Below, piece after piece: positions 28,749 to 34,812 of a stretch of 64,000 nt of DNA. The notes beneath the pieces were generated by a model. The model was not told the DNA's origin, searched no databases, and saw only the letters and a program-made list of their open reading frames with translations. Source of the stretch: Malaciobacter pacificus. GTDB taxonomy: Bacteria; Campylobacterota; Campylobacteria; Campylobacterales; Arcobacteraceae. The translations under genes were made by a program, and so were the position numbers. The stretch covers positions 248,001 through 312,000 of the forward strand of contig NZ_CP035928.1 of assembly GCF_004214795.1 (NCBI RefSeq), in the 5' to 3' direction. Position 1 is the first letter of the stretch; each line of letters opens with the position of its first letter.

Positions 28749-28956
28749 CGCATATGATATTGATATTAACTATTAATTAAGATTAAAATCTATATAATTT
28801 CAATTGATTTAAATAATTGTATATAAAATATACATAAATAATCAATTATATATAAATTAATTGTATATAATTATTTTGTTCTTCTAAGATTTCGAAATAT
28901 ATTGCGCGAAGTATATTAAGAAATTTAAAAATAAAATTAGTAATTAAGGAATTAAA
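28749..28956. other. AT-rich spacer before a porin gene, with dyads and ATTTCGAAAT
   Basis: The 208-bp spacer carries nested inverted repeats (TGTATATAAAATATACA at 28818-28834, and AATTGTATATA at 28815 and again at 28860) and the perfect palindrome ATTTCGAAAT at 28889-28898. The same 10-mer is found before the porin at 33387-34580. No gene or terminator with a T-tail is visible. It probably contains the porin promoter and operator. Confidence 0.5.
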
Positions 28957-30015
28957 ATGAAAAAAATTAGCTTAGTAGCTTGTGGTTTATTATTATCATC
29001 TTCAATGGCATTTGGTGCTAACTCAATTGATGAAGCATTTAAATCAGGAACTGTGTCTGGAACATTAACTGCATACGGACTAGTTCATGATGGAAAAGGT
29101 GGTGAAGCTGATTCTGATGGTGGTTATACAAATGCTGCATTAGCTTATGAAACTGGTTCATACATGGGACTAAGTGCTAAAATGGGATTCATTGGTGGTC
29201 ATGCTTTTGCTGATGGCGAATTAGAAAATGATGCTTTAATGACTGAAGCTTATATTAAATATGCAACTGATGGATTTGCATTATCTGTTGGTAGACAAGC
29301 AATTGATTTAGAGTGGTTAGGTGATTATAATGAGTCTGTAGTTGCAGCAATTACAGCTATTCCTGATACTATATTAGTATTAGGTTATGTTAATCAACAA
29401 GCAGCAGCTGATGAAGATGAAATTGGTAACTTTGATGAAATTACTGAAGATGGTGCATACGTTGTTGACGTTAAATATAGTGGAATTGAGGGTGTTGAAT
29501 TAAATCCTTATTTCTATTCTGCACCAGATGTTGCTGAGTTTTATGGTTTAAAAGCTTCATATTCAAATGATATGTTTGGCATTGTAGGACAATATGCAGC
29601 TTCAAGTGAAGATGTAGGTGAAGATGGTTCAATTGCACATATTGAATTAAGTACAACAGTTGCTGGTGTTGCATTAGCTGCAGGGTACTCTGAAACTGAT
29701 AAAGATGCAGGAATGGGATCAATTACAGCTTATGGTGATAACTTAACTCCATTTGATAATGGTGACCAACAATATATGACTGATTCTGAAACTTACTATG
29801 GTTCAATTGGTTATGCAATTGGTTCAGCTGATGTAGGTGTATTATTTGGTGAATCTGATACAGCTGCTGGTGATTACGCTGAGTTAAATGTATATGGTTC
29901 ATATGGATTAACTGATTCATTATCTTTAGGATTATTATTTGTTGATTATGACAAAGATGGTTCATCTGATGAAGATTATAAAGAGTACTCAGCTACTTTA
30001 TCTTACTCATTCTAA
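28957..30015 (+). CDS. Porin-like outer-membrane beta-barrel protein
   Basis: A 352-residue protein with a signal peptide (about 1-20, SSSMAFG before Ala21) and a body of alternating polar and hydrophobic strands rich in Gly, Asp and Tyr. It ends in SATLSYSF, with the C-terminal Phe needed for barrel assembly. It resembles the porins of Arcobacter-group bacteria. GTLTAYGLV near residue 35 would be the first strand, as in OprD-like and major outer-membrane proteins of the phylum. Substrate unknown. Transcribed alone with a strong terminator at 30023-30055. Confidence 0.8.
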   Translation: MKKISLVACGLLLSSSMAFGANSIDEAFKSGTVSGTLTAYGLVHDGKGGEADSDGGYTNAALAYETGSYMGLSAKMGFIGGHAFADGELENDALMTEAYIKYATDGFALSVGRQAIDLEWLGDYNESVVAAITAIPDTILVLGYVNQQAAADEDEIGNFDEITEDGAYVVDVKYSGIEGVELNPYFYSAPDVAEFYGLKASYSNDMFGIVGQYAASSEDVGEDGSIAHIELSTTVAGVALAAGYSETDKDAGMGSITAYGDNLTPFDNGDQQYMTDSETYYGSIGYAIGSADVGVLFGESDTAAGDYAELNVYGSYGLTDSLSLGLLFVDYDKDGSSDEDYKEYSATLSYSF

Positions 30016-33386: not shown

Positions 33387-34580
33387 CTAGAACATGTAAG
33401 TGAAATGTAATCTTCCTCTTTGAGCTTCAGTATCAGCAGCACCAGCATTTTCTTGGTTAACTACACCATATCTAGCATATGCATAGAAATTTTTAGATGG
33501 TTTCCAAGTTAATTGACCATAAGTTTCATCAGAATCTAAGTCTGTTGTATCATTATTCATCATATTATGATTGATTGCAGCAGAGATTGAAGAAGTAATT
33601 GCATAAGAAGCATTTAATTTAATCATATCACCTTCTACATCTAAAGTATTAAGATTTAAAGCCCAACCTTGGTTTACAGCCTCAGCATCATCATCAAATG
33701 CAACTAAACCACCGTCTTTACCTGTTGCAGTATATGAAACATTAGCTCCAAATGCACCAGCTTTTAATTTAGTACCTACATAGTATAACGCTTGCTCTTC
33801 ACCTGAATCTAATTCTAATGAAGTATATCTAGCATATGGAGATAATGAAACTCCACCTAAATCTAAAGATGTTTTAGCACCAAATGTGTAAGATTCAGCA
33901 AAATCTTTTAAATCAATAAAGTTAGCATCTAATGCAACTCCACCAAGTTTAGTCATAACGGCAACAACTGCTAAATCTTCAGCTCCAGTTGCTACATCTA
34001 CACCTTCACCAGATAATTTAGTTTGGTTCATAAATCCACCAACTAATGTAACAGGACCAACGTTAGCTACAGCAGTAATACCAGTACCCTCTTGAGTTTG
34101 ACCAATATCATCATAAGTATCAGTTTGTGGAGTATTAATAGTTTGTTGACCAACATTGATTGTTAAGTTATTAATACCTGTATATGTGAAGTAACTGTAT
34201 ACTGTGTAGAAGTTACCACCCATGTAGTCAACACCTTCTGATGTAGTATCTGAAGTTCCAGTTACTGCTCCAACATAAGTATATGATAAATCATCATTGA
34301 TTTTAGAAATTAAACCAACAGCAATTTTGTGTTTATTGTTTGTTGTATTGTTGTAGTCGTCTTCATTACCATCAGCTACAACAGTACCATCTTCTAATGT
34401 TTTACCTTTTGTATCTGTAAAGTTTGTGTTATCAATAGATCTATCATCATATCTATAAGTTGCATAACCTAAGATAGATGTATTTTTAATTGCATCCTCT
34501 AATGCACCTGCAGATGCAGTTGTAGAAAATCCAGCTACAGCTACTGCAGCTACTAAACTCATTTTTGCGATTTTTTTCAT
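33387..34580 (-). CDS. Porin-like major outer-membrane protein
   Basis: The 397-residue protein has a signal peptide (MKKIAKMSLVAAVAVAG, cut after TTASA at about 24) and a long series of amphipathic strands with aromatic belts, ending in RLHFTYMF. An upstream in-frame start at 34640 would add 20 charged residues and spoil the signal, so I take the ATG at 34578-34580, behind AGGAG. The barrel resembles Arcobacter-group major outer-membrane proteins. Its leader is GC-rich and full of dyads. Confidence 0.82.
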   Translation of the reverse strand: MKKIAKMSLVAAVAVAGFSTTASAGALEDAIKNTSILGYATYRYDDRSIDNTNFTDTKGKTLEDGTVVADGNEDDYNNTTNNKHKIAVGLISKINDDLSYTYVGAVTGTSDTTSEGVDYMGGNFYTVYSYFTYTGINNLTINVGQQTINTPQTDTYDDIGQTQEGTGITAVANVGPVTLVGGFMNQTKLSGEGVDVATGAEDLAVVAVMTKLGGVALDANFIDLKDFAESYTFGAKTSLDLGGVSLSPYARYTSLELDSGEEQALYYVGTKLKAGAFGANVSYTATGKDGGLVAFDDDAEAVNQGWALNLNTLDVEGDMIKLNASYAITSSISAAINHNMMNNDTTDLDSDETYGQLTWKPSKNFYAYARYGVVNQENAGAADTEAQRGRLHFTYMF

Positions 34581-34812
34581 TTGTTCTCCTAAAATTTCGA
34601 AATCTTTAATCAGTTTACCGGAGCGCGCGAACATGTTCAAAACGGAGGTTTCGAAACTCTACCGGCTTACCGTTGCGTTCATTCTACATCACTAAATTTT
34701 AAAGTTTTCTTAAAATTATGCTTTTGAGTGTTAATTAACTGTTAATTTAAGTTAGTTTTTAATTAACCGATTATTAATGCTGTGTTAATGCTATTTTAGG
34801 AGTTTTTTAGTC
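34581..34812 (-). promoter_or_regulatory. Porin promoter and GC-rich structured leader
   Basis: On the minus strand a TGTAGAAT extended -10 (34680-34687) is followed by a GC-rich leader of about 95 nt. The leader carries GTTTCGAAAC (34648-34657), GAACATGTTC (34629-34638) and ATTTCGAAAT (34594-34603), all perfect 10-bp palindromes, plus three TACCG repeats. The upstream part to 34812 is plain AT-rich spacer after folB. The leader could fold into hairpins or bind a regulator. Confidence 0.45.

Follow-up and report, generated by a model that had tools for sequence, protein, structure and literature searches.

A predicted structured RNA leader of a MOMP-family porin gene conserved in Arcobacteraceae

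The GC-rich region and the predicted porin leader

What does the GC-rich stretch directly upstream of a porin gene in Malaciobacter pacificus do, and does it act as DNA or as RNA? With a GC content of 53% over 70 bp, the region is about the GC-richest 70 bp of the window (the whole 64-kb stretch of DNA that was analysed); the proportion of 70-bp windows that match this value is about 3e-5. Three perfect 10-bp palindromes were located at 34594, 34629, and 34648, the word TACCG at 34616, 34660, and 34668, and at 34623 the sole copy of GCGCGC in the window. Three or more 10-bp palindromes were found in just 0.08% of 100-bp windows. The preliminary description had listed the GC-rich stretch of about 70 bp, the palindromes, the GCGCGC run and the three TACCG repeats, and all of them were recovered in place. 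The tetramers CGCG, GCGC, CCGG, GGCC, CGGC, and GCCG were all well below the base-composition expectation in the window (2–13 copies vs. about 28 each).

The assignment of the region to a porin-gene leader was also borne out. The ATG of the PF05538 porin lies at 34580 on the minus strand, so the leader lies on the minus strand as well, and folB and plsY were called upstream of it. This minus-strand region is predicted to be the approximately 94-nt 5′ leader of a MOMP-family porin. Read 5′ to 3′ on the minus strand, the TTTAAG-N5-TTTAAA box (34714–34698) is followed by TGTAGAAT (34688–34681), the predicted start at about 34674, the GC-rich element (34672–34611), the AU-rich palindrome (34603–34594), AGGAG (34590–34586), and the ATG. 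The features are as follows:

34698..34714, minus strand: TTTAAG-N5-TTTAAA box over the -35 region, matching the HP1043 (HsrA) consensus
34681..34688, minus strand: extended -10 box TGTAGAAT, from the sequence and the aligned leaders
34673..34675, minus strand: predicted transcript start, placed 7 ± 1 nt after the -10 box
34669..34672, minus strand: P1 5′ strand CGGU, coordinates from the leader mapping and the aligned leaders
34662..34666, minus strand: P2 5′ strand GCCGG, from covariation
34648..34655, minus strand: P3 5′ strand, inside the GTTTCGAAAC palindrome, from folding of leader segments
34636..34643, minus strand: P3 3′ strand, from folding of leader segments
34624..34632, minus strand: near-invariant internal-loop strand GUUCGCGCG, from the aligned leaders
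34617..34621, minus strand: P2 3′ strand CCGGU, from covariation
34611..34614, minus strand: P1 3′ strand ACUG, from the aligned leaders
34594..34603, minus strand: AU-rich palindrome ATTTCGAAAT, just before the Shine-Dalgarno (SD) sequence, kept in 36 of 53 leaders
34586..34590, minus strand: SD sequence AGGAG, from the sequence (mean predicted unpaired probability 0.72, 51 leaders)
33387..34580, minus strand: porin coding sequence, 397 aa, Campylobacter MOMP family (Pfam PF05538, E 6.1e-13), downstream gene of the leader

The spacing from the -10 hexamer to P1 is 8 nt in 50 of the 53 distinct leaders and 7 nt in the other 3. Because this spacing is fixed (7–8 nt in 53/53), we infer that the transcript starts one or two nucleotides before P1, with P1 at about +2 or +3; the number of unpaired 5′ nucleotides depends on this predicted start. 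A start downstream of the element had been named as a result that would speak against it, and the predicted start falls just upstream. The predicted leader length was 80–105 nt with a median of 94 (n = 51). The 5′ UTRs in the primary transcriptome of C. jejuni average 30.6 nt (PMC3847290), and against that mean the predicted leader of about 94 nt is long for the phylum. In the predicted folds, P1 was paired with a mean probability of 0.93, the SD was unpaired with 0.72 and paired with the core with 0.04 (n = 51, with L039 and L077 left out of the means).

The TTTAAG of the promoter box was invariant in 30 of 30 aligned promoters. The HP1043 (HsrA) consensus, as given in PMC5253667, has two copies of TTTAAG separated by 5 bp, and a TTTAAG-N5-TTTAAG-like box of this HP1043/CosR type lies over the -35 region at 34698–34714, upstream of the porin leader. 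This putative site would provide DNA-level control of the same porin gene, in distinction to the RNA element described here. Further upstream of the promoter, a AATTAACAGTTAATTAAC repeat was noted at 34730–34747 on the minus strand, with similar repeats seen by eye in several relatives; it is possibly the site of another regulator.

Conservation and covariation of the leader in Arcobacteraceae

When 100 relatives were searched at the DNA level, the leader turned up in numerous genomes of the same family. Common to the aligned leaders are P1 (CGGU...ACUG), a further helix (P2), a hairpin of variable sequence (P3), and an invariant GUUCGCGCG. The last was unchanged in 26 of 26 aligned leaders, departed by one letter in 4 of 59 aligned rows, and occurred once in the genome. 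A covariance model, R1, built from 16 sequences and comprising P1 and P2 only, matched 56 of 104 Arcobacteraceae genomes in 11 of 20 genera, with a single copy in each. Four more genomes of a further genus, g16 (L020, L021, L023, and L024), carry the element according to the DNA search and had been missed by stricter filters. A search of 397 genomes from the phylum gave 22 strong matches, every one from Arcobacteraceae. The six weak matches outside the family (L078–L083, E 0.005–0.096) included no porin leader, and four of them were in long reading frames; they were dropped before alignment A6 was built. Moreover, a pattern scan of named genomes returned 20 stretches, 19 of which were titled Campylobacterota (Arcobacter, Aliarcobacter, Malaciobacter, Poseidonibacter or higher-rank names) and one just "bacterium". 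Conservation thus reaches far beyond this strain, and its absence there had been the other result named as speaking against the element.

A second form was found in 14 genomes of genus g11, with the same promoter, the same palindrome and SD, and a simple hairpin. In this hairpin P1 is CGGU/AUCG and P2 varies, without the internal loop or P3. In an alignment of 11 distinct rows of this form, 92.9% of cells are paired, and both sides vary in 3 of 9 pairs. Visual inspection revealed diverged forms in four genomes from g2, g4, and g7 (L137, L138, L143, and L144). Some form of the element was found in 78 of the 104 family genomes, and no form was established in the other 26. The leader matched no Rfam family at the gathering score; the sole match was SAM-II, with 13.6 bits vs. 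a gathering score of 44 and an E value of 4.9, and it lay outside the element.

Folded alone, this leader was no better than shuffled sequences (z +0.92 and +0.99), and the evidence for its structure is comparative. In the 53 distinct rows of A6, which was fitted to the structure of R1 so that its counts lean that way, 94.0% of cells were standard pairs and 7 of 11 pairs changed on both sides. (L021, which does not differ from L020 within the element, was omitted from A6.) The checks on this tendency were slid controls and a count on a tree. Cells changed on both sides numbered 53, compared to a mean of 10.6 in shuffled alignments, with none of 500 shuffles reaching 53, and sliding the structure along the alignment gave 2–7 such cells. 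On the PlsY tree, the pair 13–76 changed at least 12 times and was paired in 39 of 39. The weak points of A6 were the pair 12–77, unpaired in 18 of 53, and the pair 8–81, unpaired in 8 of 49. P1 hardly varies in the main-form leaders, so the support for P1 rests mainly on the second form from g11. For P3, the segments folded better than their shuffles (mean z -1.78, 83% below -1). Two upstream control segments gave mean z values of 0.00 and 0.02 (6 and 9% below -1), and a coding control segment gave -0.31 (31% below -1).

These comparisons indicate that the leader is almost certainly a conserved structured RNA, in which P1 stands at the predicted 5′ end, P2 covaries strongly, P3 keeps its pairing while its sequence varies, and the internal loop carries GUUCGCGCG. 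Aligning related porin leaders in search of covariation, as the preliminary description had advised, did reveal covarying helices, and its proposal of a cis-acting RNA element is well supported by them together with the family-wide conservation. The palindromes that first marked the region fared differently. Counted over whole leaders (53 distinct, four rows without a recognised ATG omitted), GAACATGTTC and GTTTCGAAAC were each found in 1 of 53 homologous leaders, namely this one, and ATTTCGAAAT in 36 of 53. Judged by the leaders compared, the palindromes are not the point of the region, GAACATGTTC and GTTTCGAAAC being specific to this strain among the 53.

The surroundings of the leader were also kept. 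FolB and PlsY are encoded upstream in 34 of the 35 loci searched, and the downstream protein matched PF05538 (MOMP family) in 34 of 35 homologous loci. By this gene order, the locus is vertically inherited.

Possible roles of the leader RNA

RNase J is present in this genome, and its family was also found in control genomes. RNase E/G was not detected in this genome, though the family was found in the controls. Hfq was likewise not detected here by a search that found it in E. coli and four other genomes, nor was CsrA, which was found in E. coli, B. subtilis, and T. maritima. On these searches, the leader does not qualify as an Hfq-dependent sRNA target or as a CsrA-controlled leader.

The leader RNA probably controls the lifetime of the message or what binds to it, and we put the chance that it stabilises the porin mRNA at about even. 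Transcription would begin one or two nucleotides before P1, and the 5′ end of the mRNA would be held in a helix. P1 would then block 5′-end-dependent decay by the 5′-to-3′ exonuclease RNase J, a block that is expected because RNase J is present and RNase E was not detected. The abundant porin mRNA would be kept long-lived with its ribosome-binding site free, and through GUUCGCGCG a trans-acting protein or RNA could probably raise or lower the protection. A known 5′ stem-loop stabiliser is that of E. coli ompA (PMC7509114, PMC3997798). E. coli uses RNase E and the Hfq-dependent MicA; in contrast, searches of this genome found no RNase E/G and no Hfq. The likeness to ompA is that the mRNA of a major outer-membrane protein has a structured leader and an SD that is strong and free. 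Within the same phylum, disrupting a stem-loop in the 5′ UTR of H. pylori vacA lowers the half-life and the steady-state level of the mRNA (PMC4843948). That case differs in the gene and in that the invariant internal-loop motif is absent from its description in this source, and the porin leader is known from sequence. Furthermore, RppH of B. subtilis requires at least two unpaired 5′ nucleotides (PMC3997798). The stabiliser reading draws on this RppH requirement, on the vacA stem-loop effect, and on the RNase J and RNase E status. A conserved covarying 5′ UTR helix, as expected of an ompA/vacA-type stem-loop, was found in the leader, and the g11 form keeps the 5′-terminal P1–P2 hairpin, as would follow if the basic function resided in that hairpin. 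A pure stabiliser, however, would not need the near-invariant 9-nt loop strand or the fixed letters of P1. The near-invariant loop asks for a partner, and we favour a 5′-terminal element that would both protect and tune the porin mRNA, with a putative partner for its loop.

The near-invariance of GUUCGCGCG and its position in an internal loop would also suit a seed site for an sRNA acting in trans and independently of Hfq, either to repress the porin mRNA or to protect it. Control of porins by sRNAs is common, and some Campylobacterota sRNAs act without Hfq. We regard this as unlikely, since Hfq was not found and GTTCGCGCG occurs once in the genome, both strands counted, so that there is no perfect 9-nt trans partner. 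The 7-mer GCGCGAA, complementary to the loop word, occurs at four genome sites, one of which is the leader itself, and in the likely sense direction it is found only at the site in the leader of another porin of the window. Among 23 WGCGCGW sites, five were rRNA-operon copies (identical sequence, by eye), one was a tRNA by eye, and nine were called coding; the remainder yielded no convincing sRNA. Of the sRNA target offered in the preliminary description, the general idea survives and a perfectly matched partner does not. A conserved asymmetric internal loop between covarying helices could also belong to a small riboswitch, ion sensor or RNA thermometer, whose ligand-bound loop would alter translation or decay; porins in other bacteria are controlled by osmolarity, pH, and temperature. 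This is quite unlikely, because the element serves one gene family per genome (MOMP downstream in 34/35), the SD is not sequestered (mean pairing with the core 0.04), a match in Rfam is absent, and no terminator-like site was found between the predicted start and the ATG. No expression platform, with the SD or a terminator in a mutually exclusive fold, was found in the leader.

Conservation of DNA, in the form of promoter or operator sites or of the initial transcribed region, would accord with the highly conserved promoter just upstream, including its TTTAAG-N5-TTTA box. It is nevertheless extremely improbable as the explanation of the element, since P2 and P3 change in sequence with pairing kept, the loop strand is not a dyad, and two of the three palindromes are strain-specific. 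The cluster of operator sites once suggested for this region is not supported, the conserved inverted repeats changing sequence and retaining pairing. A further alternative, that the CGCG-bearing loops of two porin leaders kiss or share one partner and so link the expression of the two porins, arises from a second porin leader at 28896–28917 (plus strand), which forms a hairpin with a GCGCG loop ahead of a porin ORF at 28957–30015 (plus strand). Three related leaders (L150, L154, and L156) retain a CGCG loop on stems that differ, the window is poor in CGCG (6 vs. 27.6 expected), and in this genome a 7-nt complementarity exists between UUCGCGC and GCGCGAA. On the other hand, the match was noticed after the fact, the second leader is represented by just four sequences, those related leaders have 5–6 pairs by eye and have not retained the longer complementarity, and the diverged forms L137, L138, and L143 change the loop word. 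The GCGCGAA match between the two leaders may be chance. That, in bacteria without Hfq, the rare CGCG loops of structured porin leaders contact each other or a common RNA or protein, giving different porins co-regulated through direct pairing between loops, is very unlikely in our estimate.

Other candidates were tried and rejected. The porin frame is open upstream in this genome (TTG ORF), but a coding leader is not general, the frame from the loop to the ATG being open in only 22 of 53 leaders. An anti-SD switch, in which CUCC of the loop region would pair with GGAG, was dropped because the SD pairs with the core at a mean probability of 0.04. For a terminator or attenuator, the only terminator-like site found near the leader is inside the porin coding sequence (34552–34532).

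Few cis-regulatory RNAs have been described in Campylobacterota, and the TPP riboswitch was the sole metabolite-sensing one found in the primary transcriptome of C. jejuni, as reported in PMC3847290. Searches of open-licence PMC papers turned up no title or abstract on this leader, which does not show that it is unpublished. A predicted, covarying leader of about 94 nt is kept ahead of a MOMP porin in most of Arcobacteraceae, here in a host without detectable Hfq, CsrA, or RNase E. It offers a defined, testable handle on the post-transcriptional control of outer-membrane permeability in this family.

Two minor observations concern the CGCG loops. The GCGCG hairpin of the second porin leader adjoins a copy of GATTTCGAAATAT. 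In addition, a terminator-like hairpin at about position 1501 of L148 (C1 2342073 in its own genome) carries the loop UUCGCGC, which is the internal-loop word of the porin leader.
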